Positions 456 through 45,081 of a stretch of 45,145 nt of DNA are shown here, in pieces. Source of the DNA: a virus; IMG/VR virus record IMGVR_UViG_3300034072_001272, positions 1-45,145 of that record; one strand, 5' to 3'. Numbering within the stretch: the first letter of the stretch is position 1; each line of letters begins with the position of its first letter. Below the pieces are notes generated by a model. It saw only the letters and a list, made by a program, of their open reading frames with translations, was not told the origin of the DNA and ran no database searches. The position numbers and the translations under genes are program-made.

Positions 456-1060
456 GACATGGCAAGCGAATTCTCTCGCCGCTTCCTCTCGTTGTGCTCT
501 CTCAGCTCTTGCTCTGCGAGCAGGCGGGTGCTGATCTCTACTGGCGATGAAAACCTTGTCTCATGAGCCTCAGGCTCGACCACTGCCCTCGGCTTGTTCT
601 TCTCCACGAGCTGTTCCTTCGCAGCGTTGAGCAACGCCACAGCATCGAGCGACTCGAGGTCGTCCAGGCGGTCGATGATCCGTTGGCGAATCTCGCCGTA
701 CTGGTCAGGTGACGCAGCTTCAATTGCCGCCTCGAGCTCGCGTCGCAGCCGGCGGCTGGCCTCGCGGTCGATGACCAGGCGATCCCCACTGAACGCCGGC
801 TGCATCATCGCAACCGACCTCGTCGCAACGGCCTTCGCGGATGCGATCGAGCGATAGGCCGCATGAATCCAAGCGATCTGCGGAAACGGCGTGTCGCGGG
901 TCCGCTTCACCTCACGGATCGCCTCGTAGAGCGTGTCCTGGTCGAGGCCCGACAGGTCGTCGCGCCACAGGGCCAGCTCCTCGGCAGAGTACGTTTCCGT
1001 CATGGCCATCCGCCAAAAGCCGTTGATCAGAGCTCGGTTCTCTTCCCACGTCTTGCTCAC
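452..1060 (-). CDS. Putative helicase-loader-like replication protein
   Basis: 202 residues from a GTG preceded by GGGAGG. The N-terminal 70 residues (FWRMAMTETYSAEELALWRD..., then TRDTPFPQIAWIHAAYR) have the helical pattern of phage helicase-loader/inhibitor N-domains of the G39P type: a region that recruits activity at a surveyed threshold and a PFPxIAxI motif. The rest is charged and helical. It sits directly downstream of a DUF1376 protein, a common phage replication pairing. No helicase is encoded in the window, so it probably hands the host DnaB to the phage origin (inference). The match is by pattern only. Confidence 0.5.
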   Translation of the reverse strand: MSKTWEENRALINGFWRMAMTETYSAEELALWRDDLSGLDQDTLYEAIREVKRTRDTPFPQIAWIHAAYRSIASAKAVATRSVAMMQPAFSGDRLVIDREASRRLRRELEAAIEAASPDQYGEIRQRIIDRLDDLESLDAVALLNAAKEQLVEKNKPRAVVEPEAHETRFSSPVEISTRLLAEQELREHNERKRRENSLAMS

Positions 1061-1920
1061 AGGCCACCTCCCACCGCGACAGGCTTTCGCCCTCGCGAGC
1101 GATCGGGCTGCGGTGGCTTCAAGGTCCTAAACTCACCCGCCAGGATGCGGTCGAGGTCACGCACAAACTGCGTCCACGGCACCGGATCGGTGAACCGGAT
1201 GCACCCCGGGAGCATGGCGAGCCCTCGCCGCAGCTCATCGAGCCGGCCGGGCGATGCCGCGATCTCCGAGAAGTTGTTTGGCGGGGTCAGGTGCGTCCAC
1301 GGGACAGCCCGGTCGATCGCGTTCCAGACCGGGGCGATGGTTGCCCACTCGTCGTGCACCCAGCCAGGCCGGCGGAAATCGTCTTCCGGGTCTCGGGATT
1401 TCGGCGGCGGTGCCGCGGCGCGCGCGTCTGTTTCTTTCTTCTTTGAAGATATAGGTGAAGGTGAAGGTGATGGCGTATCCGAATGCGATACCGTCTGCGT
1501 ATCCGTCTGCGTGGTGCATTCGGTGTCCGCCTGCACTTCCGTCTGCGTGGCCAGCAGCCTTGCCCCAGCCTCCGCGGCTTCCCGTTTCAGCCTCTTTGCC
1601 TCGTTTGCCGCATGGGCCGCGGCCACCTTCTTCTCTCGGTTCTCGACGGCGGCGCTCCGGTGCTCCTCGAGCCGGCGGTTTCGCAGCTTTCCGTCCGTGC
1701 CGAGCGAGAACTTCTCGCCGACCGTGCCCCAGCATTCGGTTACCCCAGGCGTGATTCGCTCAAGGGCCTTCATGTCGCTTGGAAGCCCTCCCATGGCCCA
1801 CTGAGCCATCAGCAGCGTCAGGTAGTGCCCTCGCTCCTCTGCGGACCACCCAAGCGTTGCCGTGAGGAAATCACTCACGTACAGCGGCATCCAAACATCG
1901 ACCTTCGTTTCATCAGCCAT
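1057..1920 (-). CDS. DUF1376 (YdaU-type) phage replication protein
   Basis: 287 residues; the ATG at 1920 has GGAGG six bases upstream and is preferred to the GTG just before it. The N-terminus (VWMPLYVSDFLTATLGWSAE, then RGHYLTLLMAQWAMGGLP) is the recognisable DUF1376 domain, a winged-helix-like module found in phage replication genes. A charged helix and a long low-complexity S/P-rich linker follow, then a C-terminal domain with W and P pairs (about residues 190-285). The stop overlaps the start of the loader-like gene. Likely binds DNA at replication initiation; the exact role is unknown for the family. Confidence 0.75.
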   Translation of the reverse strand: MADETKVDVWMPLYVSDFLTATLGWSAEERGHYLTLLMAQWAMGGLPSDMKALERITPGVTECWGTVGEKFSLGTDGKLRNRRLEEHRSAAVENREKKVAAAHAANEAKRLKREAAEAGARLLATQTEVQADTECTTQTDTQTVSHSDTPSPSPSPISSKKKETDARAAAPPPKSRDPEDDFRRPGWVHDEWATIAPVWNAIDRAVPWTHLTPPNNFSEIAASPGRLDELRRGLAMLPGCIRFTDPVPWTQFVRDLDRILAGEFRTLKPPQPDRSRGRKPVAVGGGL

Positions 1921-1941
1921 CACAGCCCTCCGTGGCTATTG

Positions 1942-4708: not shown

Positions 4709-4979
4709 CTGAACCGCCTCCCTGCGACGCAAAGCCGATCCGCTGAAACACGTAGTCACGCTTAAATGGACCTAAGTCACGTTCGGGAATCCATGCCGTC
4801 TCGCGTCGCCGGCCATCCCACCAACTGACTTCGTAGGTGACCTCAACACCTCGAATGCAGACGGCCTGAATCGTCCCGTGGATGGGCTCATTGATGCTGC
4901 TGCCGATGAGTACGGTCTCGCCGGCCGCAATGACCGGTATCGATGAGATCGGGCAGCGGGCCTTCGCGAGTGTTGCCAT
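4701..4979 (-). CDS. Hypothetical small beta-rich protein
   Basis: 92 residues from the ATG at 4979 (a GTG lies immediately before it and overlaps the upstream TGA). The sequence is strand-rich: IAAGETVLIGSS, GTIQAVCIRGVEVTYEVSWW, ETAWIPERDL, then YVFQRIGF. This is the pattern of a small SH3- or Tudor-like barrel, often used to bind nucleic acid or protein tails. No closer assignment can be made. Confidence 0.6.
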   Translation of the reverse strand: MATLAKARCPISSIPVIAAGETVLIGSSINEPIHGTIQAVCIRGVEVTYEVSWWDGRRRETAWIPERDLGPFKRDYVFQRIGFASQGGGSDG

Positions 4980-5182
4980 CACCCACCCCCTTCCGTGCGA
5001 TGACGCAGCACGGTGATCTCATGACCAGAGGCCGCGGACTTGGCGCCGTGGGCCAGGTGCTCGAGTGCCTTTCGCTGGCGATCGATAACGGCACGCAGCG
5101 TGTCGTTCTCTGCCTCGAGATTCTTGGCGAGCGATGCCAGCTCGCGGCGGTTCTTCCATCGTGCGATCAGTTGGCGAATCAT
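4979..5182 (-). CDS. Small coiled-coil protein
   Basis: 67 residues, ATG in an ATGA overlap with the terminase-like gene. Residues about 10-45 are a basic, leucine-heptad helix (RRELASLAKNLEAENDTLRA), ending in a charged tail. It directly follows the Lys-less terminase-like ATPase, with which it is translationally coupled. It could be a partner of that protein (inference). Not recognised. Confidence 0.6.
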   Translation of the reverse strand: MIRQLIARWKNRRELASLAKNLEAENDTLRAVIDRQRKALEHLAHGAKSAASGHEITVLRHRTEGGG

Positions 5183-5979
5183 TGGCCCACCTTCCCTTCC
5201 TGGTCTTGTTGGATGAGGTCAAAAGCTTCCTTGCTGAAAATCGACATACCGGCAGTTTTGGGGCCGCGGGCGCCGAGTCTTGAAACCTCGCCGGCGAGCG
5301 TCGCCTTGCGGTGCATGCACATCGTGGCCGACCGGAGCGTCTCGGCATCGAAAGGGTCATCGACGAACACGAACGTCGGCCTGGTCCTGGTCATTTCAGG
5401 CCCCGCCCTGGTCGACACGCCTACAAATGCACCCATGATGCTGAACGACTGAATCACGCACCCCGAGGCCGGCGAGCCCTTGATGCTCGGGAACCGGATC
5501 ACGTCGCCGCGCCATTCAATGCTGGTCAGAGATCCGTCGCAGGTTTGAAATGCCGCTCGCTGGGTGATCCCATCAAGCTTGCGGATCGGATAGATGGCCT
5601 CCGGAAAATCCTCAAGGAGTAGGTCGTTCCAGAGGCATTCCGACTTGATGTTCTCAGCAAGGGCTTCGGACGCACGTCGCGAATGGTGGATGGTGGCCGT
5701 GAACCAGCTCCGGCCGTACAGGGCGAGCCACAACGCCCCAGCCTCGACGATGGTCGTGCTGCCGATTCCATGATCGACCACCACAAGCGTCCAAAGGCTG
5801 TCCTCGACGGCGAGCTCGAAGTGATTGGTGATCCGCGTGCGGTCCGGCCCCCATTCGGCAGTGAACGACTTGGGCATGTACGTCTTGCAGAACAGCTTGA
5901 AGTCGTCTCGGCAGCTCATCTTGCGTGCCGGATCGACCACAGGGGGAATGGGCCCGATGTCTCGTTCTGACTTTGTCAC
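5179..5979 (-). CDS. Terminase-like ATPase domain without Walker A lysine
   Basis: 266 residues from a GTG (5979) in a GTGA overlap. It aligns along its length with residues about 70-305 of the phage's own large terminase (41156-43327). Shared features are the DDFKLFCKTYM / DSFRAFCETYL entry, ALWLALYG / ALWALLFG, FPSIKGSPASG / FPSIPGSPASG, and Walker B FVFVDDP / LVLIDDP. The terminase Walker A PRGSGKTS is replaced by DHGIGSTT, so the ATP-binding lysine is lost. The coupling motif is also altered, and there is no C-terminal nuclease domain. It sits in the early operon about 1.4 kb downstream of recT, not with head genes. Probably a non-hydrolysing decoy, regulator or scaffold; degradation is unlikely because the frame is intact and coupled. 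Confidence 0.75.
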   Translation of the reverse strand: MTKSERDIGPIPPVVDPARKMSCRDDFKLFCKTYMPKSFTAEWGPDRTRITNHFELAVEDSLWTLVVVDHGIGSTTIVEAGALWLALYGRSWFTATIHHSRRASEALAENIKSECLWNDLLLEDFPEAIYPIRKLDGITQRAAFQTCDGSLTSIEWRGDVIRFPSIKGSPASGCVIQSFSIMGAFVGVSTRAGPEMTRTRPTFVFVDDPFDAETLRSATMCMHRKATLAGEVSRLGARGPKTAGMSIFSKEAFDLIQQDQEGKVGQ

Positions 5980-6338
5980 GCTGCCACCTCGAGCCTTCCT
6001 TGAGCTGCGGCCAGGTCGGCCGCTTTGATGAACCACCCCGTGAACGGCGAGCCATCGAGCCGCTGCACGAGCAGCTTCGACGCGGCCCAGGCTTCACCGG
6101 CCCTCGTGCCGCGCGTCGGCCTGAAATCCTTCGCCTGCTTCAAGAGCTGGCGAAGGGCACGAACCTCGGCGAGGCCGAGCGTGAACAGGTCGCCCTTGAA
6201 TGGTCGAGCCGTCCGCACCACTGCCAACGCGGCCCGCCTGATCCGCGAGACGAACTCGTAGGCCAGGTCGTCGCCGGCCGCGGCTGCCTCCGCTCGCTTC
6301 TCTCGCCGTTTCCGTAGCTTCCGTGCATCGCTCATCAT
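5976..6338 (-). CDS. Hypothetical basic helical protein
   Basis: 120 residues from the ATG at 6338 with GGAGGG upstream. Begins with a strongly basic helix (RKLRKRREKRAEAAAA). A predicted helical core with LFTLGLAEVRALRQLLKQAK follows, then a C-terminal GSPFTGWFIKAADLAAAQGR. The basic head suggests nucleic-acid contact. It is immediately upstream of, and coupled to, the terminase-like ATPase, so its partner-like position resembles that of a small terminase subunit (speculative). Confidence 0.55.
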   Translation of the reverse strand: MMSDARKLRKRREKRAEAAAAGDDLAYEFVSRIRRAALAVVRTARPFKGDLFTLGLAEVRALRQLLKQAKDFRPTRGTRAGEAWAASKLLVQRLDGSPFTGWFIKAADLAAAQGRLEVAA

Positions 6339-6370: not shown

Positions 6371-6577
6371 TCACGTTTGAATGTCAGGCCTGACTGGGCC
6401 ACCGACCTTGACAATGGGCTCGCCCTCTCCGTCCAAGGCTCGCTGCATTTCTCGAAGACCAATCGCAGGATCGAGCCCGTCATGCTCCACGGCCTCGGCG
6501 ATCCGCTTGACGCGTGCCACCATTCGGTAGCTATCGCCTCTCGTTTCCTGCCGAAGCTTCTCGTTGTCGATGCTCAA
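6371..6577 (-). CDS. Hypothetical protein with TTG start
   Basis: 68 residues. The start is a TTG overlapping the recT stop (TTGA), supported by GGAGG seven bases upstream. Mostly helical and charged, no motif recognised. Lies between recT and a basic protein in the early operon. Confidence 0.55.
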   Translation of the reverse strand: MSIDNEKLRQETRGDSYRMVARVKRIAEAVEHDGLDPAIGLREMQRALDGEGEPIVKVGGPVRPDIQT

Positions 6578-7557
6578 GACTGAGCCTCCTGTCGGGCCAC
6601 GGAATCCAAGAACGCATCCTTCTGGTCTGCGAGGGCTCGCAGCTCGGCGGCCTCCTCGGCGGTGAGCTCGCCGTCCGATGCGAGCTGCTCGGTGCTCTCG
6701 CGGATCTTGGCCACAGCCCGCTTGTCCTTGGCCTCCTCGAGGTAGGCGGCCAGGCGGTCGGCGTGGGGCGGCTCGACATCCTGCTGCTCGTCGAGATCAG
6801 CCGGCTGGGCCTCGACGTCGAGCGTCGTCATGGCGTCGTCGGCCATGCCGCCGGCGGAGCTGCTGAGGGCAGGATCCTCGTAGGCGTCGATCGAGACAGC
6901 CCGGGTCAGCTCAGGCGACACAGGCAGGATCTTGCAGATCCGACGGAACACCGTCTTCTTGGCCATCGATTCGTAGTCGGTCACCCACGGGCCGTCGCCG
7001 CTGGACTTCGACCGCTTGCGGATCTCGTCGACCTCCCGCTTGGTCATGACCTCGAACTGAACGCCACCGTCGCGGAGCTTCGCCACTGCGTAGACCGCGA
7101 CCATGGGGCCGGCGTCGCCCGAGGCCGGCTTGTGGTTCAGCTTGGGATCCAGCCCAAACTCGTAGGAAAACTCGTCCTTCGCGTGGACGACGTGGGCGTA
7201 GATCGTGCTGATCTGCCCGCTGCGACGCGCCAGCTCGATCAGGCCGCGGTAGCCGGGGATGAACTGGCATTCCTTCCGGTTCGTCTTCCGGTTGTTGAAC
7301 GGGACCAGGTACGCGTGGCCGAGCACGCCGTCCGGCTCGAGGCCGAGCTGGCTGGCCTGGATCAGAGCCCCGATCAGGCTTCGCGGCTCGCAGTCCAGCA
7401 GGGCCGGCGTCTTCTGGATGGCCGTGTTGAACACGCGGATCATCCGCTCAGCCGACAGGTGCCGCGGCAGAGCCACCGCGATCTGCTCGCGTGACTTTTC
7501 GATCAGGCTGCGAACGTTGCGGGTTTTCTCTTGGATCTTGGTCAGTGCCTGGGTCAT
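6574..7557 (-). CDS. recT: RecT family single-strand annealing protein
   Basis: 327 residues; the ATG at 7557 has GGAGG six bases upstream (a GTG immediately before it is poorer). Clear RecT family: RNVRSLIEKSREQIAVALP at the N-terminus, LIGALIQASQLGLEPDGVLG, then LVPF, FIPGYRGLIELARRSG and AVYAVAKLRDGGVQFEVM near residue 160. The C-terminal 80 residues are acidic and variable. RecT coats single strands and anneals them during phage recombination. Its usual exonuclease partner (RecE, lambda Exo or YqaJ type) is not seen next to it. The nearby early genes are instead a terminase-like ATPase and small proteins. Confidence 0.92.
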   Translation of the reverse strand: MTQALTKIQEKTRNVRSLIEKSREQIAVALPRHLSAERMIRVFNTAIQKTPALLDCEPRSLIGALIQASQLGLEPDGVLGHAYLVPFNNRKTNRKECQFIPGYRGLIELARRSGQISTIYAHVVHAKDEFSYEFGLDPKLNHKPASGDAGPMVAVYAVAKLRDGGVQFEVMTKREVDEIRKRSKSSGDGPWVTDYESMAKKTVFRRICKILPVSPELTRAVSIDAYEDPALSSSAGGMADDAMTTLDVEAQPADLDEQQDVEPPHADRLAAYLEEAKDKRAVAKIRESTEQLASDGELTAEEAAELRALADQKDAFLDSVARQEAQS

Positions 7558-7802
7558 CACGTGCCTCCTTTGAGTTTTGGGAACATCGATTTCACAGCGT
7601 CGACAGACGCCTTGAGTGCGAGCTTTGCCTCGGGCGAAACCTTGTTGGCGTCACCGCCGGCGGCTTCCAGTTCCTCGAGGTAGCGAACGGCCGCGTTGTG
7701 TTCAGCGATGTACCGCGACTCGGTGTATGCGGCTGCTGCCGCCCGATCGCGGGTGCGTTGGTTGCTCAGGTCCTTCTTGGACTCACAGACGCGAGACGAC
7801 AT
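7557..7802 (-). CDS. Hypothetical helical protein upstream of RecT
   Basis: 81 residues from the ATG at 7802 with AAGGAGGG at ideal spacing. A basic N-terminus is followed by a long helix (AAAAYTESRYIAEHNAAVRY, then LEELEA) and a Lys-rich end. Its stop overlaps the start region of recT. Not recognised; perhaps a RecT accessory by position. Confidence 0.6.
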   Translation of the reverse strand: MSSRVCESKKDLSNQRTRDRAAAAAYTESRYIAEHNAAVRYLEELEAAGGDANKVSPEAKLALKASVDAVKSMFPKLKGGT

Positions 7803-7828: not shown

Positions 7829-8293
7829 TCAGACGAGACGCAGCCGGTACTCGTATTCCGAATTGCCCTTCGAGTTGATGACCTTCCGGCCCGTGTGCTC
7901 GACGGTGCAGAGATCCACCCGCATTTCCTTGAGCCGGCGGCACACGACGACGTTGTCTTTGAGGCCGGTCCTGGCGGCGATCTCCGTGGCACCAGCCGGC
8001 CCCAGCCGGAGGGCGTCCTCGATCAGCTCGTAGTGCCTCGCGTTTTTCGCGTGCTTCGCTCCGGCCTCGTGCGAGGTGATCGGGTCGTCGAGTCGGGCTC
8101 GGTGGTCGTCTGCAACAGTCGAAACTCTGGGCTTCCGCATCGGCGGCAGGGATGAGTGTCCGGCTTCGGTGCGTTGCACCTGTTGCACGCCATCGCAGGC
8201 GGCAGGAACGGAAGGTTTGTCTGCATGTCGCTCCTTCGTAGCGAGCTGCCCGAGCGGCGAGTCTGCCCATGGGTCGGAGTAGTAGTCGCTCAT
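7829..8293 (-). CDS. Winged-helix DNA-binding protein
   Basis: 154 residues, ATG in an ATGA overlap with csrA. The first 75 residues are low complexity with CNRCNA-like pairs absent in this frame. The C-terminal domain (about 75-154) is a winged helix: HYELIEDALRLGPAGATEIA, then ARTGLKDNVVVCRRLKEM as the recognition unit, and a wing EHTGRKVINSKGNSEYEYRL. This domain is common in phage replication or regulation genes. The target is unknown. Confidence 0.65.
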   Translation of the reverse strand: MSDYYSDPWADSPLGQLATKERHADKPSVPAACDGVQQVQRTEAGHSSLPPMRKPRVSTVADDHRARLDDPITSHEAGAKHAKNARHYELIEDALRLGPAGATEIAARTGLKDNVVVCRRLKEMRVDLCTVEHTGRKVINSKGNSEYEYRLRLV

Positions 8294-8481
8294 GACGCCC
8301 TCTCCGCTGCGAGTGCCAGCTCGGCGACGACCTCGGCACGGTTGACGGCGACGTTGGCCGGGGCCTCGAACCCGATGCGGACCTTGTCGCCGCGGATCTC
8401 GACCACGAACACGTGAATGACGAGGCCTCCACCGATGGAGATCTGCACCGCCTCATCCTTCTTGCGGCTGAGAACTAGCAC
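8290..8481 (-). CDS. csrA: CsrA/RsmA-type RNA-binding regulator
   Basis: 63 residues from a GTG at 8481 that overlaps the end of the preceding gene. It begins MLVLSRKKDEAVQI, continues VIHVFVVEIRGDKVRIGFEA and ends with a helix after NRAEVV. The key CsrA RNA-contact residues are in place: Leu4, Arg6, and the Arg that corresponds to Arg44 of E. coli CsrA (in VNRAE; the usual His before it is Asn). CsrA dimers bind GGA motifs near ribosome-binding sites. A phage copy could bias host or phage translation early in infection; which mRNAs it binds is unknown. Confidence 0.88.
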   Translation of the reverse strand: MLVLSRKKDEAVQISIGGGLVIHVFVVEIRGDKVRIGFEAPANVAVNRAEVVAELALAAERAS

Positions 8482-8801
8482 TTGTGAGTCCCTCGGGTGG
8501 CCCGGCTGTAGTCGGGAGGAATGCCTTCGATCATTCGCCGGCGGCGAACGTCGGCCATGAAGCCGGGAAGGCCGATGCCATCGGACAGGCGACGCTCTTC
8601 TTCGGAGTGCAGTTGGTCGAGGGCCTCGATGAAGCCGGCGACCAGGTCGCATCCCACCGTCTGGTCACCGAGCTCGATCCGCTTGTTCACTGAAAGCGTC
8701 ACGCTCTCGTTGAGAGGCAGGGACGACTTGCAATGGATCGCCCGGCCGAGCTTGACGTAGAACGCAGCCGTGATCTTCAAGATCCGCCGAAGCGGATCCA
8801 C
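8475..8801 (-). CDS. Hypothetical early protein
   Basis: 108 residues from a GTG at 8801, with GAAGG upstream, overlapping the previous gene by 25 bases. Contains VDPLRRILKITAAFYVKLG, a beta-like stretch, then an acidic/basic helical half (CDLVAGFIEALDQLHSEEER, then FMADVRRRRMIEGIPPDYSR). No motif recognised. The same frame stays open further upstream to 9284, but the composition there is not protein-like. Confidence 0.5.
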   Translation of the reverse strand: MDPLRRILKITAAFYVKLGRAIHCKSSLPLNESVTLSVNKRIELGDQTVGCDLVAGFIEALDQLHSEEERRLSDGIGLPGFMADVRRRRMIEGIPPDYSRATRGTHKC

Positions 8802-9470: not shown

Positions 9471-11087
9471 ATGGACGTTTCGAGAATCAGAAAGCTGGAA
9501 GTCGTACGCGGAATGGCCCCGGCTGGAACGGTCAAGTTGACTGCGGCCATCGAGATCACGGCGAAGGAGACACGGATACTCGTTTACGCCCAGCGAATGA
9601 ACGGGAACGGCCACGTCATGGAATGCGGCGCCGTGTTGAATTCTGCGAACGGGTTTCCTGTTGACCGTGTCACCGGCGCGATTGACGTTTCAGTGCCCCT
9701 CGACTTGGCCCTTCGGGCATGCAGTAGATTCAGGCTGTCGACGGAAGACGGACGTTCGGTGTCTGTAGAGCGTGTCTTCGTGGATTACGGGTGGTCGGCG
9801 TCCCGTGAGTCAGTCCTTCGGGTTGTGAATGCCGAGAAGTACCGCACGTGGGTTGTCCTTTGCAGATCGCGATTTCAAGCGAATCGCGAGTTCGAGGTGA
9901 CGAGCCAGTCAGTGCCGGCGATAGCCGCCATCGACCTGGATCACTGGCGTACACGTGCCGCAAGGATGCTTCAGGAGTCCAGGCTTTCAGCGCCAGCGGA
10001 GGCCGCTCGTCTTCTGCTTGAGGAGCTGTCTCGCTGGCATGCGATCGAAGTGTTCTCCGGCCGTGCATCGCGAATGCAGTGGGTCATGTCGATGGGGGCG
10101 TCAGCAGGCATGTTTGACCTTTTGGCGATGGCTGTTGCAGCCGCCGAGGTTCGGATCCGTTTGCCGATTTCAGCGGCCGTTTGGAACCAGGCGGCCAGGG
10201 CCACGGCGACGCAGGCAGACAAGGAGTTTCGCGCAACCAAGCCGGCAGTGAAGCTCGCTCACGAGATCACGGACGCCGAGCTGCAGACCATTTGCAGCAT
10301 CGTCGGCTGCAAGATCCCCGGGCCGTACGCGAGGCGAATGGCGATCGACATCGACTGGGCGAACGGGCCCGTTTCGGTTTCCGTCGACACGCTCGCCACA
10401 AAGCCAGCAGCGAAGGCCGCTGGCAGCGAATCGAATCATGACGCCGAGCCGGCGGCGAAAGCAGTGCCCGAGCCTGATGCGGTGCAACCGAATGGCAAGG
10501 GACTTGGCACCGGCGATATTGGTGATGGCCTGTACCCGGCCAGGGTCAAGCTGCCGTGGGATCAGCACGACCACGCCGACGGGCTGAATGGCCGGAAGTG
10601 GTGGGTTCATCGGGCGCCAGGTGGCTTTGAGGCCTGGCTGAACAACGAGAAGCTCAACTCATACTTCGGGCACGACACCGCGATCGAATTCTGCGAGCGC
10701 GAAGAGGCCCGCCGGCAGCGGTTCGATATCGAGCTTGCTCAGCATGCGAAGGAACAAGCCTTCATGCGCGAAGCCCAAGAGCGGATGAAGGCAGACCGTG
10801 AGAAGGCAGTGGAGGACGAACGCAAGCACGAGGAGCTTTGGAAACGCTACTCAGAGACGCTCCGGAAACACGAGGAGTTTATCGCCGCGGCGACCAAGAC
10901 TGGCTGCGATGCCGTTCTGGTCCAGGCAGACGATGCGATGGAAATTTTTCGTGCATCGATTGAGCTGTACCAGTCCATTCTCGCAGCCGGCATGAAGTCG
11001 ACTGACACGGTTCCACAGCTCTGCGAATTATTCTCCAACGAGCTGATCAAGCTTCGTCGAAAGCTTTCGGCTAGTTCAAAGACCTAA
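9471..11087 (+). CDS. Unknown 538-residue protein of the immunity region
   Basis: Start at the ATG at 9471, eight bases after GGGAGG; the ATG six bases earlier is too close to it. Residues 1-130 are beta-rich and resemble no family I recognise (KLEVVRGMAPAGTVKLTAAI; VFVDYGWSASRESVLRVV). A helical middle follows (about 140-290), then an Ala/Lys/Pro linker (about 300-350). Next is a conserved-looking KWWVHRAPGGFEAWLNNEKL segment, then a long coiled coil (about 410-490, EEARRQRFDIEL; AQERMKADREKAVEDERKHE). It is read from a repressor-controlled promoter and converges with the repressor gene, overlapping it by four bases. Cargo with an exclusion or anti-host role is possible, but nothing in the sequence proves it. 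Confidence 0.7.
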   Translation: MDVSRIRKLEVVRGMAPAGTVKLTAAIEITAKETRILVYAQRMNGNGHVMECGAVLNSANGFPVDRVTGAIDVSVPLDLALRACSRFRLSTEDGRSVSVERVFVDYGWSASRESVLRVVNAEKYRTWVVLCRSRFQANREFEVTSQSVPAIAAIDLDHWRTRAARMLQESRLSAPAEAARLLLEELSRWHAIEVFSGRASRMQWVMSMGASAGMFDLLAMAVAAAEVRIRLPISAAVWNQAARATATQADKEFRATKPAVKLAHEITDAELQTICSIVGCKIPGPYARRMAIDIDWANGPVSVSVDTLATKPAAKAAGSESNHDAEPAAKAVPEPDAVQPNGKGLGTGDIGDGLYPARVKLPWDQHDHADGLNGRKWWVHRAPGGFEAWLNNEKLNSYFGHDTAIEFCEREEARRQRFDIELAQHAKEQAFMREAQERMKADREKAVEDERKHEELWKRYSETLRKHEEFIAAATKTGCDAVLVQADDAMEIFRASIELYQSILAAGMKSTDTVPQLCELFSNELIKLRRKLSASSKT

Positions 11088-11341
11088 AACAAGCCGGCCG
11101 TCAATTTCTCTCTGGTCGTCCCGAGAGCCGTGGCGAGCTTCGCGAGCGTCGAGGCCTTCGGCTCTTCGGTGTCGCCGGTTCGGATCGCATAGATCGTTTC
11201 TTTCGGGACGCCAGACAGCTCGGAGAGCGACTTCACCTCAAGCCCCCTCCGGGCCATCAAAGCGTTGATGCGTTCTCCTAGCGGGCAGAAGTCCTTTTCG
11301 AGGGGCCGGCCGCCTGGGTGTCTTTCTGTGACGGTTGCCAT
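11084..11341 (-). CDS. XRE-family phage repressor (Cro/CI-type HTH)
   Basis: 85 residues from the ATG at 11341 with GGAGGG upstream. Residues about 20-80 are a classic XRE helix-turn-helix domain: LGERINALMARRGLEVKSLS, ELSGVPKETIYAIRTGDTEE (recognition helix), PKASTLAKLATALGTTREKL. No oligomerisation or peptidase domain follows, so it is a short repressor or Cro-like protein. An operator-like site lies about 22 bases upstream of its start and two more overlap the early promoters, so autoregulation is likely. Confidence 0.8.
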   Translation of the reverse strand: MATVTERHPGGRPLEKDFCPLGERINALMARRGLEVKSLSELSGVPKETIYAIRTGDTEEPKASTLAKLATALGTTREKLTAGLF

Positions 11342-11362
11342 ATCGAATCCCTCCTGTGGCCA

Positions 11363-11384
11363 GTTTTTCAGTCCGATGGAAAAC
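11363..11384. promoter_or_regulatory. Operator-like site C at the repressor gene
   Basis: 22-bp quasi-palindrome, half-sites GTTTTTC and GGAAAAC around a CAGTCCGAT-type core. It shares 18 of 22 bases with each of sites A and B. Placed just upstream of the repressor ribosome-binding site, it probably mediates autoregulation. Confidence 0.6.
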
Positions 11385-11392
11385 CCGGCCTC

Positions 11393-11411
11393 CCCGGCAT
11401 AGGATGCCGGG
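11393..11411. repeat. Perfect 8-bp hairpin beside attP
   Basis: CCCGGCAT and ATGCCGGG separated by AGG. It lies between the repressor promoter region and the tRNA-like segment, 14 bases beyond the tRNA 3' end. Could be an integrase arm-type or regulatory site; no T tract follows. Confidence 0.5.
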
Positions 11412-11424
11412 TGCAGGCCGGGAA

Positions 11425-11489
11425 TACACCCCGCTGGGCTCGAACCAGCAACCTTCGGTTCCGTAGACCGATGCCCCAGTAGTTCGAGC
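11425..11489 (-). other. Probable attP: tRNA-Arg(ACG) 3' portion
   Basis: Read on the minus strand, positions 11471-11455 fold as an anticodon arm: stem TCGGT/ACCGA, loop CTACGGA with U33 and anticodon ACG. Positions 11449-11433 form a T arm (GCTGG, TTCGAGC, CCAGC), followed by an acceptor strand GGGGTGT and discriminator A at 11425. A D-arm-like GCTC...GGGC precedes it (11489-11473). The expected 5' acceptor strand is missing: the bases there do not pair with GGGGTGT. A 3'-half tRNA just upstream of an integrase gene is the standard signature of a phage attachment site in a tRNA gene. Confidence 0.75.
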
Positions 11490-11605
11490 CAGCAGGGCCA
11501 CTCGTGACGGTCGCACGGATTGTGCGGCCACGATGGCAGGTCTGGACGCCAGGCAGCGCCCCGCATACCGCAAAGGATTGCCCTACGCTTTCGGGGGGTG
11601 CTCCG

Positions 11606-12496
11606 ATGTATTGCCGCGCGGGTCCACACACGCTTTCGGAATACCTTTCCGAGTATGCGACGACGCGATCGATCGAGCCGACAACGGTCTACCAGTACCA
11701 GATCGTGATCCGACTCTTTGAGCGATGGGCCGGCCGCACCATCAGGCTCGACGAACTGGACGAGCTGAGCGTTTCGGCATGGCTGCGGGAGTACTCAGCC
11801 ACGGTCAGCCGCACGACCGTCCGGAACAAGCGGACCATGCTCGTAGCCCTGTGGCGGAACGCGGCCGACGACGGGTATGTGGATCCACCCCGCCGGCGAA
11901 TCCGATCCGCTCGGGCCGACATCGCCGCGCCCGTCGCCTGGACGCTCGAGGAGGTCGCCACCCTGAGATCCGCGTGTCGGAAGCTGCCACGGCGGCACCG
12001 TTGCGGCCTCACTCGCGCCGACTGGTGGGAGCTGGCCGTCTGTGTCGCGTGGGACTCGGGGCTGCGATGGGGTGACCTTGTTCGTCTTCGCGTGGATGCC
12101 ATCCAGCCGAACGGTATGGCGGTGGTTCAGCAGCACAAGACGCGGCGCCTCACGGTGTTCTGCTTGTCGGACGACACGATGCGGCTCCTGAAACGATCAC
12201 TCGCGCTCGCGCCCCGCGAGCTGGTCTGTCCGTGGCCGGCGACAGGGGAGACGTTCCGAGCCCAGGCCCGCCGCCTGGTCGCGAAGGCCGGGCTACGGGG
12301 CGGGACGTGGCGTTGGCTCAGAAGGGGAGGGGCTACCGACGTGGAGATCCAATCCATGGGGGCCGCAGCCACCCACCTCGGTCACCGGCCGGGTAGCCGG
12401 ATCGCCGAGCTGCATTACATCGACCCAGTGCTCCTGGCGGGGGCGAGGGGGATCGTGTCGCCGAGGCCGCTGGCAGGGCCTCTCGCGAGGGGGTAG
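11606..12496 (+). CDS. int: Tyrosine integrase 1
   Basis: 296 residues; the ATG at 11606 is chosen because the N-terminus then aligns with that of the second integrase (M-Y-C-R-A-G-P versus M-F-R-A-A-G-P) and GGGGGG precedes it. The SAM-like core-binding domain (about 10-95) includes TTVYQYQIVIRLFERWAG. The catalytic domain has the first Arg in WDSGLRWGDLVRLR, the second Arg in TWRWLRRGGATD (Trp replaces the usual His), HLGHRPG, and a candidate nucleophile Tyr in ELHYID. It directly follows the tRNA-like attP, which supports site-specific integration into a host tRNA-Arg gene. Confidence 0.9.
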   Translation: MYCRAGPHTLSEYLSEYATTRSIEPTTVYQYQIVIRLFERWAGRTIRLDELDELSVSAWLREYSATVSRTTVRNKRTMLVALWRNAADDGYVDPPRRRIRSARADIAAPVAWTLEEVATLRSACRKLPRRHRCGLTRADWWELAVCVAWDSGLRWGDLVRLRVDAIQPNGMAVVQQHKTRRLTVFCLSDDTMRLLKRSLALAPRELVCPWPATGETFRAQARRLVAKAGLRGGTWRWLRRGGATDVEIQSMGAAATHLGHRPGSRIAELHYIDPVLLAGARGIVSPRPLAGPLARG

Positions 12497-23408: not shown

Positions 23409-23450
23409 TTCAGTGTACTGCCGTTCAGGCGCGTCCCTCGGCGTCGAACG
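23409..23450. repeat. 42-bp repeat, copy 1
   Basis: 38 of 42 bases match 41113-41154 in the same orientation. This copy includes the last codons of the dNMP kinase gene and the TACACT element ahead of the next gene. The other copy is in the gap below the terminase gene. Confidence 0.75.
23412..23417 (-). promoter_or_regulatory. TACACTG late -10-like element 1
   Basis: Minus-strand TACACT followed by G, 21 bases before the GTG of the 71-residue gene. No convincing -35. One of four TAYACTG motifs placed before late genes. Confidence 0.45.
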
Positions 23451-25181: not shown

Positions 25182-27232
25182 GCGATCACCATCGATCCGA
25201 AGCCCGTGAAGGCATAGGCGCTGATCCGGTGCGGATACGTGCCGGCGGCTGGGCCACACATAGGGGAATCCTGGCACCGAGATGCGCAGCCGTTTTCACC
25301 GTAGAACAAGCCGTAGCTACCACCACCACCGAAAACCGTCATGCACTTCTTGTTGCAATGGTTGCACTCGTGAGTGTCTTCGATGGATCCGTTCCCCGCG
25401 GAATCGAACTCCAATACCTCCCGGAACCCCCACGTCGCTCGAGGTGGCCCTGGGTTTTGTGTGGCACACGGCACAACCTCCACGAAAAGGTAGTCGCCAT
25501 TCCATGAAGTGCCGCCCTCTTGCAGGGTGAGTACGTGATCGCCTTCCGGTGGCGCTTGGTAGTGTGTCCAAGCCATCTCGATCGCAGTCGGTTCATCCAC
25601 GCTCCAATACGACTGAATGTGAGCGATCAGACCAGTTGGATACGTGTAGGAAACGGTCACCTCTTCGGGTGGAGCCGCGTCACCTTGGCAGCATGGCAGG
25701 CATGAGTACGGGCCGGCCCATTGGTTGTTTTCGTCGTAGGTGCCACCTTCCGACACGGATGCTGTGGTGCCGCTCGGGTGTGAGGCCTCGAACTCGATTG
25801 GATCGTCGACACCCACGAGCGTCTCGGCCGTCATGAGAACGTCGCAGGTCATCGAATGAAGCGGGGTGGGGCTTCCGACTGGCGACTCAGTGATGAGCAC
25901 CACGTAGGCGGGCTTTTCTGGACCTCGCCAGACAACTTGCAGCGCTCCGCGGGTGGCGTGGGCGGCATTGCCCGTGCAAAAACGGTGCTCGTAGACGCAA
26001 GCCGGCCGGCTCGCCTGGCAGTCGTCCATAGGAACCGACGCTGTCTCTCGGCAGAAATGAGCCAGGTACGGGTAAAGCGGCCAGCCTTCCGAAACAGGGT
26101 AGTAGTCGGTGGCGTTGTCATTGCTGTCGACCTGGCCCTCGCGAGCACAGGGCCGCGCCCCCTTTCGGAGAACAAACGTCCTGCCGTCCAGGGCTGTGTC
26201 GCAGCAGCTCCGCACGTAGTCGGAACCGTTGTAATCGTCGCCGCCGTCGTCGAGAGCAATCCCCGTCAGGCTCCCAAACGTTGGACTCTCGGGATCATCG
26301 TCGATCGAGATCGTGAAGGTCGCGCCCGTGCCTCCGCCACCGTCCACGGTTGCGGTCACGTCCGCCAGTAGGGCGGGCTCGGTTGGGTCCTCCTCGTAGT
26401 AAACGCCGCCATCGTCGACAACGATGATGTCGGCCACGCCGGTGTCTTTGAAATACTCGCCCGGGGAGTCGATCACGTATCCCGTGATTTCTCCGCTGCC
26501 GCCAACGGATGTGACGCGGCCGAATGCCGAATAGGACTCCTGCCCATCGGTGACCACGAAGGCGATCGGGTCATCGACAACGTAGCCGGTGCCGGCCGTG
26601 TCGATGCTCAGAGTGTCTACGCCCCAGATGTCACGGCCATCGAGGTCCGTGCCGGCGGACAGGTTCACCGACAGGGCGCCGCCAGTGCCGATCGCTCCCG
26701 ACAAGTCGGCCACGATCGTCGGCGCGGCCCGGACCGTGCGAACCCGCAGATACGCGGGCGACACCTCCATCACCTCTGGGCCGTAGTAGAGGTAGAACTG
26801 CTGATTGTCCGTGTAAGACCCCTCGTCGCCGCCGTCGACGACGGCCGCCGATGCGATCCGCCAGTAGGGCCAGTCGCAATCGCCAGCCTCCTCGGCAAGC
26901 GTGAAAGTAACGGTCGAGTTGCTGTCTCCGGTGATCGTCGGTTCCACCCTGCCGATCGCCGCATACCCTCCGCCACCCGCCGTAAGGATCGGTGTGTCGA
27001 CCGGGCCCGGGGTGGAGCCAGGTTCCGGGGCGTTCACGTAGCCGGCGGCGCCTTCGCCCTGGCACGAGCTGAACGCGAGCGGGATTCTGCTGACAGCCGG
27101 GAAGGCCGTCGCGAAGCCGCCGAGCGTGACCGTGAGGGTATCGGGCAGACAACGCGACCGGGTGACAACCTGCGTCCCGGAGAACGGGTTTGTCACCAGA
27201 ACCTTGCCGGCGCTGGTCACTGGCCTTCTCAC
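25178..27232 (-). CDS. Large tail-tip/tail-associated structural protein
   Basis: 684 residues from a GTG in a GTGA overlap. The N-terminal half is beta-rich with repeated Gly/Asp strands and GTGY-type turns (SIDTAGTGYVVDDPIAFVVT; YVIDSPGEYFKDTGVADIIV). The C-terminal half is Cys-rich (CVYEHRFC; CNHCNKKCM; CASRCQDSPMC), implying disulfides or metal clusters. Lies directly after the two tail proteins below the tape measure, where central tail-tip or fibre proteins are coded. No enzymatic motif recognised. Confidence 0.65.
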   Translation of the reverse strand: MRRPVTSAGKVLVTNPFSGTQVVTRSRCLPDTLTVTLGGFATAFPAVSRIPLAFSSCQGEGAAGYVNAPEPGSTPGPVDTPILTAGGGGYAAIGRVEPTITGDSNSTVTFTLAEEAGDCDWPYWRIASAAVVDGGDEGSYTDNQQFYLYYGPEVMEVSPAYLRVRTVRAAPTIVADLSGAIGTGGALSVNLSAGTDLDGRDIWGVDTLSIDTAGTGYVVDDPIAFVVTDGQESYSAFGRVTSVGGSGEITGYVIDSPGEYFKDTGVADIIVVDDGGVYYEEDPTEPALLADVTATVDGGGGTGATFTISIDDDPESPTFGSLTGIALDDGGDDYNGSDYVRSCCDTALDGRTFVLRKGARPCAREGQVDSNDNATDYYPVSEGWPLYPYLAHFCRETASVPMDDCQASRPACVYEHRFCTGNAAHATRGALQVVWRGPEKPAYVVLITESPVGSPTPLHSMTCDVLMTAETLVGVDDPIEFEASHPSGTTASVSEGGTYDENNQWAGPYSCLPCCQGDAAPPEEVTVSYTYPTGLIAHIQSYWSVDEPTAIEMAWTHYQAPPEGDHVLTLQEGGTSWNGDYLFVEVVPCATQNPGPPRATWGFREVLEFDSAGNGSIEDTHECNHCNKKCMTVFGGGGSYGLFYGENGCASRCQDSPMCGPAAGTYPHRISAYAFTGFGSMVIA

Positions 27233-41112: not shown

Positions 41113-41154
41113 TTCAGTGTACTGCCGTCCAGGCGCGTCTCTTCGCGTCGAACG
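41113..41154. repeat. 42-bp repeat, copy 2
   Basis: 38 of 42 bases match 23409-23450 in the same orientation. It lies in the 81-base gap between the terminase stop and the connector gene. The half nearer the terminase matches what is the 3' end of the dNMP kinase coding sequence in the other copy, so this copy probably derives from a kinase-gene end. Confidence 0.75.
41116..41121 (-). promoter_or_regulatory. TACACTG late -10-like element 4
   Basis: Minus-strand TACACT followed by G inside repeat copy 2, about 42 bases before the connector gene. No convincing -35. Confidence 0.45.
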
Positions 41155-41155
41155 A

Positions 41156-43327
41156 TCACATGCCTTGCCGCGCCATGAGCTCCGCGCGCCGCGCCGCGAG
41201 GGCCTCTCTCGTGTACACGCGCCGCTTGCGCATCGGAGCACCCTCCGTTCCGACGTCAGAGATACCGACGAACGAAGCCGCCACTGCCGCGCCGGTGAGA
41301 CAGTCGAGCCAGTCGTCTTCGCGACCAGGAAGCAGTGCCCAATACGTCATCACCTTGTCCTTGCCCTTGCGTTCCTCGGGCATGCTGCTGGTGAGGTGAT
41401 CCGTCAGCAGGTCATGCGTGCCCTTCGGGAGCGTCAGGACGCGAGGATCTCCCTTCGGGAGTTTCAGCCGGCTGATGACGAAAGACTTCCAGAGGTTGGA
41501 GTCGTAGACGACGTGCTGCTGCTTCTTGATCGTCTCGGTCATCCAGTCCGAACCGACTCGCTCGCTCCCCTTCGCGTCGCGCTCGCCAATGAGCTTCATG
41601 CCGGGGCCGATGTAGCGACCGTGCGTCGGCAGGATTCGTGGGCCGAACTTGTTCCGCCGGCAGAAATCACGCACCGTTCCTCGCTGCTGGGCCCAGTTGG
41701 CGTCGATGAAGAGCTGCCGGACCTGCAGGACTCCGTCCTCGTCTTCCCGGCCGAACTCGCGATTGAGGAGCTGATCGGTCAGTGCCTCGAGGCCGGCCAG
41801 GATCGCGGCCGAGTCCTGTGCCTGCTTGGATGCCTTTTGCAGCGTTTCTTTCAGGTCACGCTTCGTGAAATACGACCGGGCCTGGTCGGGATAGACCCCG
41901 TAGTCAACGAAGTGCCCGCGGAACTTGTCGCCCCAGGCGAGGACCGCCCAATACAGCACGTTCTGCTGGACGTCGACGAACGACGTGAGGGTGTGCATGC
42001 CGGCCGGCACGATCGACTGATCGACCGTCTTGAGCACCTTGTCCGTCACGTGCTCTGGCTTCAATGCGTCGGTCGCGGCCTTATCCTCGATCGGCTCGTT
42101 CTGGTACTCGGCGAAGAACGCAGCCTCGCCTCGATCGATCCGGAGGTTCCATGCGTGCTGGATCGCGCTCAGCTCGTCGTCGGCCTTTCGTGCGGGCCAG
42201 GCCACCCGTGATCCGGCGTCCATCGCCACCTGGTTCTCGGCGTAGAACTGGTTCGCCCTGGCAACGCCCTGGCCGGCTCGCTGTCCGCCACGCCTCAGCT
42301 CCGCGTACTGTTCCCACAGTGCGGTCGCGGTGGGCCACTCGTAGACGAGCTTCATGCGGCGCCCCTGCCATCCAGGGTGCCGGTTGCGGTCGAGGAGACG
42401 ATCGGCGAGGTCGTCCTTCGCGATGCACGTCACGGTGGCGAGCGCGGCGACCTTTCGGCCCGGGCCACCAAGGCCGAGGATCGCTCCTTGGATCACGGCT
42501 TCGCGGTCCGTGACCTGCTTCGGGCTCCTCGCGCTCTCGTCGGTCTGCGGGTCGTCGATCAGCACCAGGCCGGGGCGAACCTTGCGGCCGTCGGATGCTC
42601 GCTTCGCCGTCATGCCGCGGATGCGGCCGGTGATCCCCGCGACGCGAATGATGCCGCCCGAGGCCGGCGAGCCTGGGATGCTCGGGAACTGAACCTCGTT
42701 TTCCTTCCACTTGATGTGGGTGCTCTTGCCCTTGTAGGTCTGCCCCTTGGACCGTTGGTGGATCCGGTCGAGAGCGACGATCGGGAAAACCGCTCCCGGG
42801 AAATCCGCCAGGATCAGCTCGTTCGTCTCGGCCTCAACCTTGATGCTTTCGAGCATCGTGAGGGCGTGCCCCTCGTCGCTTCCGACGATCGCCACGAACT
42901 CCTGGTGGCCGAAGAGCAGTGCCCACAACGCGGCCGCCTCGACGAGCGACGTCTTGCCGGATCCGCGAGGCATCGCGAAGGCGAGCCGCTCGCCGTTGAT
43001 GACTGCGGCCTCCACTGCCGCGATGATCTCGAGGTGGTCCTCTGACCACGTGAGCGTGAACGTGTTCGACAGGTACGTTTCACAGAACGCACGGAAGGAG
43101 TCGAGGCAGGCCTCCATCCTCGCGAGGTCCTGGATCGGCGGCAGCTCGCCGATGTCACGCGTCGCCTCCGATTGCTCTCGCGACCGTGCGGCCTGCCTGT
43201 CACGATGCGATTCGTAGGCCGAGCGAGGAGCGCCGGTGCGACGTTCGAGCTCCGCGATGGCCCGCAGTTGTGCGCGGGCTTTTTTCTTGGCCTCGGCGAG
43301 CTTCTCGTGCGTGGCCGTTGGCGCCAT
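41156..43327 (-). CDS. terL: Large terminase (DNA packaging ATPase-nuclease)
   Basis: 723 residues. Walker A AMPRGSGKTS (about 118-127), Walker B LVLIDDP (D258, D259), coupling motif region AALATVTCIA, and a C-terminal RNase-H-like nuclease (TSFVDVQQNVLYWAVLAWGD; VRQLFIDANWAQQRGTVRDF; DCLTGAAVAASF). It pumps DNA through the portal and cuts it. No adjacent small subunit was recognised. Its ATPase half has a Lys-less paralogue at 5179-5979. Confidence 0.92.
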   Translation of the reverse strand: MAPTATHEKLAEAKKKARAQLRAIAELERRTGAPRSAYESHRDRQAARSREQSEATRDIGELPPIQDLARMEACLDSFRAFCETYLSNTFTLTWSEDHLEIIAAVEAAVINGERLAFAMPRGSGKTSLVEAAALWALLFGHQEFVAIVGSDEGHALTMLESIKVEAETNELILADFPGAVFPIVALDRIHQRSKGQTYKGKSTHIKWKENEVQFPSIPGSPASGGIIRVAGITGRIRGMTAKRASDGRKVRPGLVLIDDPQTDESARSPKQVTDREAVIQGAILGLGGPGRKVAALATVTCIAKDDLADRLLDRNRHPGWQGRRMKLVYEWPTATALWEQYAELRRGGQRAGQGVARANQFYAENQVAMDAGSRVAWPARKADDELSAIQHAWNLRIDRGEAAFFAEYQNEPIEDKAATDALKPEHVTDKVLKTVDQSIVPAGMHTLTSFVDVQQNVLYWAVLAWGDKFRGHFVDYGVYPDQARSYFTKRDLKETLQKASKQAQDSAAILAGLEALTDQLLNREFGREDEDGVLQVRQLFIDANWAQQRGTVRDFCRRNKFGPRILPTHGRYIGPGMKLIGERDAKGSERVGSDWMTETIKKQQHVVYDSNLWKSFVISRLKLPKGDPRVLTLPKGTHDLLTDHLTSSMPEERKGKDKVMTYWALLPGREDDWLDCLTGAAVAASFVGISDVGTEGAPMRKRRVYTREALAARRAELMARQGM

Positions 43328-43416
43328 TTACAACGCCACGACGGGCCCTCCGGCTCCGGAATACCGCACATTCCGCGGGCATTTCGGCCCAGAAAAAAAG
43401 CCCCCCGCGAGACTTG

Positions 43417-43433
43417 CTATCGGCACACGATAG
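43417..43433. promoter_or_regulatory. Inverted repeat CTATCG-GCACA-CGATAG
   Basis: A perfect 6-bp inverted repeat 51 bases before the 107-residue gene. The 21 bases from 43417 match the 21 from 13441 (the promoter of the 62-residue gene) at 16 positions, so the two distant promoters may share a regulator. Confidence 0.45.
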
Positions 43434-43483
43434 GGCAATGTACGGGTGTCCATGCACGACACCCAAAGCAAAGGAGAACGACG

Positions 43484-43807
43484 ATGAAACTTGCGAACGC
43501 CCGAATCGAGAAGCTTGCCGAGTCCAAGCGGGCCTACACGGTCCGCGAACTGATCGAGGAGCTCGAGGGCCACGACCCTGACGCCCTGGTGGTCTTCTCG
43601 GTGAACTACGGGGACATCTGCAACACGATGCAGGCCCTTCCGATCGAGAGCGTTGACGAGCTCGACCAGTGCGAGGTGATCGCCGAATCGGCTTACAGCC
43701 AAAGCGGCATGAGCATCGAGAACGCCTTCGAGCGAGGCGGCTTCGATGAGGACGATGAAGAGGTCGATGTGCCCCACCCCGATTGCGGCGTGGTGGTTCT
43801 CCGGTGA
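43484..43807 (+). CDS. Acidic hypothetical protein
   Basis: 107 residues; AAAGGAG at ideal spacing before the ATG. An N-terminal helix (KLANARIEKLAESKRAYTVR), ELIEELEGHDPDALVVFSVN (a motif seen in small phage proteins), then an acidic C-terminus with DEDDEEVDVPHPDCGVVVL. The only plus-strand gene in the right arm, isolated between two leftward genes and with its own control region. Not recognised; isolated plus-strand genes of this kind are often cargo or anti-host genes (inference). Confidence 0.65.
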   Translation: MKLANARIEKLAESKRAYTVRELIEELEGHDPDALVVFSVNYGDICNTMQALPIESVDELDQCEVIAESAYSQSGMSIENAFERGGFDEDDEEVDVPHPDCGVVVLR

Positions 43808-43830
43808 TCGGCAGGGTGGAACCTTCGCGA

Positions 43831-45081
43831 TCACTGATGCCCAGCTCCGGAGGCTTCAAGGATGGCCCCGGATGCTGGGCTGGCCTCTGATAGGTAGGCC
43901 GTCTTTCCTGTGAGTTGTTCCCACCTGCGGACGATCACGTCGCAGTACCGCGGGTCGAGCTCCAGCCCGCAGCACCGCCGGCCGAGCTGTTCCGCGGCGA
44001 TGAGCGTGGTGCCGCTGCCCAGGAAGCTGTCGAACACCAGCCCGCCCGGGCGACTGCTGTTGCCGATCAGGTAGGCGATTAGCGCCACCGGCTTCATCGT
44101 GGGGTGGTCGGCGTTGGATGTCGGCCGGTCGAACTCGAGCACCGTGGTCTGCGAGCGGTCCGAATACCACTCGTGGGCGGCCCCATCCTTCCACCCGTAG
44201 AGGCATGGCTCGTGCTTCCACTGGTAATCCTGCCGTCCGAGCACCAGGGCGTTCTTCTTCCAGATCAGGCACTGCCGCACCCGCTGGCCGCAGTCTTTGA
44301 CGGCGCCGCGGAAGTTGAGGCCCTCGCTGTCGGCGTGCCAGATGTAGAACGCACCTCCCGGCTTGAGGGCTGCGAACGCCTGCTCGTAGGCCGCGCGGAG
44401 GAACGCACGGAAATCGGCGTCCGGCATGCTGTCGTTCGCGATCGTGAGGGCCTCGTCGGTCCCGCCCACGTAGGCGACGTTGTACGGAGGGTCGGTCAGC
44501 CAGATGTCGGCCAGCTCGACGTCCATCACGCGCTCGACGTCTTCGGCTCGCGTCGAGTCGCCGCAAAGCAACCGATGCTCGCCGAGGATCCACAGGTCGC
44601 CCGGCTTCGTGACCGGGTCCGCCGGCGGCTCCGGCACGTCGTCCTCGACGATCCCGGTCGGCTCGCCCTGGTAGAGGCCGGCCGCTGCCGCCACATCCGC
44701 GAGCATCTGCTGGACCGCCTCGCTCCCGGTGTCGAGATCACGCAGGATGGCATCGAGCTTCACCGCGTCCGCCTCCGCCATCGCCGAGAGCGGGTCGAGC
44801 GTCGCGAGGATCTTGTCGGCCTCGGCCTGGTTCACGTCGAGCACCAGGACCGGCACCGGCTTGTCGCCGAGGGTCTCCACGCGGAGGTGACCGTCGATCA
44901 GCTCGAGCGTGCCGTCGTCGAGCTCCCGGGCCAGGACCGCGTCAGCGATGCCCACCTCGGCGAACACGCCGCGGAGCGCGTCGGCCTGGGCCTGCGGATG
45001 GGTCCGCCAATTCCTCGGGTTTGGGCGAAGATCGGAGGCCGGAACGCGGCGAAGCTCTCGGATTCGGTCCCTGATAAGCAT
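43831..45081 (-). CDS. ParB-DNA methyltransferase fusion (beta-class N-methyltransferase)
   Basis: 416 residues. Residues about 1-95 are a ParB N-domain (LRPNPRNWRTHPQAQADALR; LIDGHLRVETLGDKPVPVLV). The methyltransferase domain follows: catalytic motif TDPPYNV (about 196-202), then WKHEPCLYGWKDGAAHEW, HPTMKPVALIAYLIGNSS and the S-adenosylmethionine motif DSFLGSGTTLIAAEQLG near 345. The order catalytic-then-AdoMet marks the beta class. It adds a methyl group to adenine-N6 or cytosine-N4. No partner nuclease, so it probably protects phage DNA or marks a packaging/partition site. No clear ribosome-binding site precedes the ATG. Confidence 0.88.
   Translation of the reverse strand: MLIRDRIRELRRVPASDLRPNPRNWRTHPQAQADALRGVFAEVGIADAVLARELDDGTLELIDGHLRVETLGDKPVPVLVLDVNQAEADKILATLDPLSAMAEADAVKLDAILRDLDTGSEAVQQMLADVAAAAGLYQGEPTGIVEDDVPEPPADPVTKPGDLWILGEHRLLCGDSTRAEDVERVMDVELADIWLTDPPYNVAYVGGTDEALTIANDSMPDADFRAFLRAAYEQAFAALKPGGAFYIWHADSEGLNFRGAVKDCGQRVRQCLIWKKNALVLGRQDYQWKHEPCLYGWKDGAAHEWYSDRSQTTVLEFDRPTSNADHPTMKPVALIAYLIGNSSRPGGLVFDSFLGSGTTLIAAEQLGRRCCGLELDPRYCDVIVRRWEQLTGKTAYLSEASPASGAILEASGAGHQ

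Follow-up and report, generated by a model that had tools for sequence, protein, structure and literature searches.

A selected terminase ATPase core without hydrolysis residues or a nuclease domain, a possible dominant-negative or decoy terminase of a probable planctomycete phage

Why would a phage that encodes an intact large terminase (TerL) also keep, away from its late genes, a second terminase core that appears unable to hydrolyze ATP? The window (the whole stretch of DNA that was analysed, the 45,145 bases of one virus record, from a temperate phage) contains such a gene, here called pseudo-TerL (Table 1). The right part of the record holds head genes, with a portal, a capsid-protease fusion and the intact TerL, whose nuclease domain (residues 421-690) is the lambda-type GpA_nuclease. 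An ORF at 43328-43834, which matches no family, is a candidate small terminase by its position. TerLs of the window type are found in phages and prophages of Planctomycetota and other PVC bacteria, and the host of the window phage is therefore probably a planctomycete.

Table 1. Positions of pseudo-TerL, its motifs and the genes that give its context in the window
Feature	Positions	Strand	Description
Primosomal-type protein	1057-1923	-	
ORF downstream of pseudo-TerL	4979-5182	-	67 aa; coupled to pseudo-TerL
Pseudo-TerL	5179-5979	-	266 aa, GTG start; ATPase-core-only terminase paralogue, Walker A lysine to serine, no nuclease domain
Walker B codons, Asp207-Asp208	5356-5361	-	kept; counted from the GTG at 5979
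Degenerate Walker A codons, GIGSTT	5752-5769	-	residues 71-76; counted from the GTG at 5979
ORF upstream of pseudo-TerL	5976-6338	-	120 aa, no family match; coupled to pseudo-TerL
RecT-family single-strand annealing protein	6574-7560	-	PF03837 (E = 5e-50), phrog_148 (E = 4e-89); same gene run as pseudo-TerL
HTH regulator	11084-11629	-	
Integrase	11504-12496	+	
Intact large terminase (TerL)	41156-43327	-	723 aa, GSGKTS, GpA-type nuclease PF20454

Several other features of the record were seen. A CsrA domain (PF02599, E = 2e-14) is encoded by a phage gene near recT (8290-8652, minus strand), and a fusion of a ParB-like domain with an N6/N4 DNA methyltransferase lies near the terminase gene (43831-45081, minus strand). 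A 42-nt direct repeat, 90% identical between its copies at 23409-23450 and 41113-41154 (spacing 17.7 kb), has the second copy directly 3' of the TerL stop codon. Record L003, compared in part, is 100% identical to the window from about 31.2 kb to the end, and it ends at most 9 bases from the right end of the window (45145), perhaps a physical genome end. ARAGORN called a tRNA-Val on the minus strand (26778-26871), within an open frame of 700 aa that has the same orientation; this may be a false call.

Pseudo-TerL matches the ATPase core of the window TerL and nothing else in the record. BLASTP aligns it with TerL residues 52-300, the core ATPase domain (177 bits, E = 3e-55), with 92/249 identical residues (37%) and no gaps, and it also matches the large terminase family phrog_38 (E = 2e-5). 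The part of TerL after residue 300, a linker/lid of about 120 aa and then the GpA nuclease domain, is absent. Pseudo-TerL ends 17 aa past the core and has no Pfam match, and thus lacks an RNase H-like nuclease domain. The AlphaFold2 model, for which the input alignment was made of TerL relatives, is a complete and confident core fold (mean pLDDT 89.6, pTM 0.90). Its nearest PDB folds in Foldseek are the PhiV-1 TerL bound to Avs3 (8dgc) and the ATPase domain of T4 gp17, followed at lower ranks by the HK97 and P74-26 TerLs, and terminases were also matched among viral predicted structures.

A recent duplication of the window TerL does not explain the gene. The closest relatives of pseudo-TerL are intact, full-length TerLs with 36-42% identity, and it is no closer to the window TerL (37%) than to those of other phages (up to 42%). 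In a tree built from 78 ATPase cores it falls, weakly, within the clade of the window TerL and L012, and its branch is 1.9 substitutions per column long (median 0.14). The GSPASG block is 80% identical to that of TerL over 54 nt, and there is no clear sign of local gene conversion: across all identical residues of the two proteins, 53 codons are identical where 45 are expected from codon usage.

The residues that pseudo-TerL has lost centre on catalysis. The Walker A region reads DHGIGSTT where the window TerL has PRGSGKTS, and the codon for Ser74 (AGC) is two substitutions away from the lysine codon of TerL (AAG). Across 359 loci, 222 distinct frames match the ATPase model. Lysine stands in this column in 218 of them, 3 are cut off there, and the one with serine is pseudo-TerL. 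The Walker A lysine of P-loop ATPases is needed for ATP hydrolysis, and from this established chemistry we infer that pseudo-TerL has lost that activity. Further positions with little or no variation over 71 TerLs are changed as well (R70, S72, H47, G98, G180, T182, R186, Q210 and L233); the changes affect the PR before the P-loop, R186 of GITGRIRG and Q210-T211-D212 after Walker B. The coupling motif is SIFS instead of the ATVT of TerLs. Walker B (FVFVDDP) keeps both aspartates.

The gene is nevertheless not decaying. It shares four bases with each neighbour: its GTG overlaps the TGA of the upstream ORF (GTGA, 5976-5979), and its own TGA overlaps the start of the downstream ORF (ATGA, 5179-5182). 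Nucleotide identity to TerL is 51%, a divergence at which an open frame was kept in 0.35% of neutral simulations, and the alignment contains no indels and no stops. The amino-acid identity (0.369) is above the maximum of 4000 neutral simulations (0.345). Third codon positions are the most different (identities of 0.51, 0.58 and 0.45 at positions 1-3), and codon-position GC is like that of other genes in the record. Pseudo-TerL retains 56% of residues at TerL columns that are at least 80% conserved and about a quarter elsewhere. We conclude that pseudo-TerL is a terminase ATPase core that has lost its hydrolysis residues and nuclease and whose fold is under selection.

Much of this had been proposed in an initial annotation, which described an intact, start/stop-coupled frame for a catalytically dead terminase paralogue, with a Walker A lysine changed to serine, an altered coupling motif, Walker B and FPSI-x-GSPASG kept, and no nuclease domain. 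The alignment, the gene overlaps, the neutral simulations and the predicted terminase P-loop ATPase fold all bear this out. Its statement that the product corresponds to the ATPase half of TerL holds for the ATPase core but not for the whole pre-nuclease half. Two findings had been named that would speak against a dead paralogue. A sequencing error is ruled out, because the lysine-to-serine change takes two base changes and because the protein also lacks the nuclease domain and other residues that TerLs keep invariant. The closest database homologues are indeed all intact TerLs, a finding that can be read either way, as they represent parents of pseudo-TerL and not its orthologues.

A second dead copy is present in a planctomycete prophage (record IMGVR_UViG_2839682702_000002; L373:8050-9273(-), the same gene as L402:10001-11224(+) and G279). 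It was the one further dead copy among the matches listed for about 794 Planctomycetota genomes (G051-G844); the later searches scored the first 4-6 candidates per genome, and copies may be missed. Its 407-aa product has GRGVTT at Walker A (lysine to valine) and VDHP at Walker B. Like pseudo-TerL, it has no nuclease domain, and both proteins read SI..xFVG at the site of GITGRIRG in TerLs, so that the same invariant arginine is valine in both. It differs in having a mostly helical N-terminal extension of about 135 aa, in the DH of its Walker B (DD in pseudo-TerL) and in its location in the late packaging region, two genes away from a normal TerL. Its predicted structure is confident for the core region and of low confidence for the extension. 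In L373 the order is second pseudo-TerL, a 534-aa protein with a trypsin-like peptidase domain (PF13365; L373:6434-8038(-), 3' of the second pseudo-TerL), a 292-aa protein and the true TerL. The existence of this copy indicates that the dead state of the window protein is neither a sequencing error nor a unique accident.

The two dead copies could have had either one origin or two. They are about 33% identical, and both sit on very long branches. A tree in which they form a common clade has an lnL 23.5 higher than the unconstrained quick tree and is not rejected (p = 0.86), and the two share 5 derived residues where 3.8 are expected.

Other searches gave no further copies. Single-sequence scans of viral_contigs and genome_contigs found no orthologue of the window pseudo-TerL, and there was no dead copy among 100 viral records with window-type TerLs (many of these records are fragments) or at the loci of relatives of an ASCH-domain neighbour. 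Ten short frames (G423, G130, G175, G436, G363, G659, G835, G842, G574 and G823) were rejected since they keep GxGK or lack that part; they resemble true TerLs whose frames are broken by contig ends, insertions or frameshifts. Matches of G093/G266 (339 aa) and G179 were due to chance. The motif RTRPxFVxVD was rejected as a diagnostic, since a scan with it gave only the second pseudo-TerL again and true TerLs. Separately, in some planctomycete TerLs of this family, with frames of about 1100 aa, Walker A itself is interrupted by an intein-like insertion, GSGK being followed by ALALDTP... (L399:2456-5788(-), L423:2435-5755(-) and L424:2916-6221(+)); in L399 the insertion ends with ...VPTHN before T.

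What might a dead terminase core do? The features that survive in pseudo-TerL are mostly structural, and binding is therefore its likely activity: instead of packaging DNA, the protein probably binds and blocks a target, which could be a motor for packaging or a sensor of the host. Our main reading, to which we give a probability of about 0.38, is that pseudo-TerL is a terminase core of dominant-negative or decoy type, able to bind a terminase partner but not to drive a power stroke. The dead core would take a surface normally held by TerL, at the portal vertex, on the small terminase or at a place in the TerL ring. Once bound, it would give no power stroke, and the motor would be throttled or poisoned. 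The gene sits with recT and the primosomal-type gene and lies apart from the late genes, and for this reason we suspect that its product is made before or apart from them; gene content alone suggests such early expression. The outcome could be a delay in the phage's own packaging, or damage to the motors of related phages or satellites that infect the same cell. We slightly prefer foreign motors as the target, because pseudo-TerL is as distant from its own TerL as from those of other phages.

Work on known motors is consistent with such an effect. A single Walker A mutant subunit was concluded to inactivate the lambda motor, and inactive T4 gp17 enters motors and slows them (PMC8589836). Since dead subunits stop or slow these motors, a dead core could throttle packaging by the phage itself or by its relatives. 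There are counterpoints to the dominant-negative reading. In some phages, such as T4, parts outside the TerL core bind the portal; without the lid/linker and nuclease domain, pseudo-TerL may not be able to enter a ring at all. Invariant residues besides the lysine are gone, and contacts may have been lost with them. If pseudo-TerL is made together with TerL in the lytic cycle, the phage itself could be harmed.

Pseudo-TerL might instead be a non-catalytic accessory of the phage's own motor, for example an assembly chaperone, a clamp or a TerS-like adaptor. The place of the second dead copy, so near a TerL in a prophage packaging region, fits this idea. We consider it unlikely, as the 100 viral records (with the same caution about fragments) and most prophages have one TerL and no such protein.

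A role as a decoy for an Avs-type STAND sensor of the large terminase, in which the dead, nuclease-free core, produced early, would sit on the sensor but not activate it, also seems unlikely, and about equally so. Avs1-4 are stated to recognize the large terminase and portal (PMC12931631). A decoy of this kind would need the fold kept and catalysis lost, as in pseudo-TerL, and the position of the gene apart from the late packaging genes would fit as well. The best PDB match is a TerL in complex with Avs3, but the match is to the terminase and not to Avs, and the second dead copy lies in a late region.

Besides a role in blocking or poisoning packaging, the initial annotation had considered a DNA-binding scaffold with RecT. 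A new function outside packaging and immunity, as a scaffold that binds DNA or protein in recombination with RecT, would be in keeping with the shared gene run and the translational coupling to small neighbours. A link of this kind is not supported, and we regard such a function as improbable. None of 11 loci around relatives of the window RecT contains a dead copy, nothing in the sequence hints at DNA pairing, and no recognized recombination gene is near the second copy in the 13 kb inspected. That copy is in a late packaging region and not beside recT, and thus the link to recombination does not generalize.

The least probable view, now largely refuted, is that pseudo-TerL is a relic, a piece of a terminase that was captured, does little and is still open by chance: the lack of a detected orthologue and the single comparable protein elsewhere would suit it, but neutral decay to such divergence is almost never stop-free, the amino-acid identity is above that of all simulations without any indel, and both neighbour overlaps are intact.

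Few viral machines have been studied as well as packaging motors, which are also a target of phage satellites and bacterial immunity. As far as we could find, natural dead paralogues of a motor subunit are undescribed; searches that covered open-access full text gave no description of such a terminase paralogue. We speculate, tentatively, that Planctomycetota phages have made natural dominant-negative or decoy terminases, perhaps repeatedly, that block packaging by rivals or shield the phage from terminase-sensing immunity. Should pseudo-TerL prove to block motors, a specific packaging inhibitor would be at hand; should it shield against Avs-like sensors, it would be a new type of anti-defence.

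Compared with the TerLs of the planctomycete/PVC phage clade (phrog_38, PF20454), pseudo-TerL is alike in its core ATPase fold, RDIG N terminus, Walker B and FPSIxGSPASG loop. It lacks the Walker A lysine, the Walker A arginine, the GRIRG arginine, the lid/linker and the nuclease domain, and its gene sits with recT and not with the portal gene. If our model is right, pseudo-TerL would block assembly or packaging, as do the prophage and satellite interference systems Tab (PMC10884400) and SaPI (PMC5052747), although these, within the searches made, are not dead copies of a motor ATPase. The doping of T4 and lambda motors with inactive subunits (PMC8589836) likewise involves an ATPase-dead TerL subunit, but those engineered subunits are full-length laboratory mutants, whereas pseudo-TerL is a natural, truncated paralogue.
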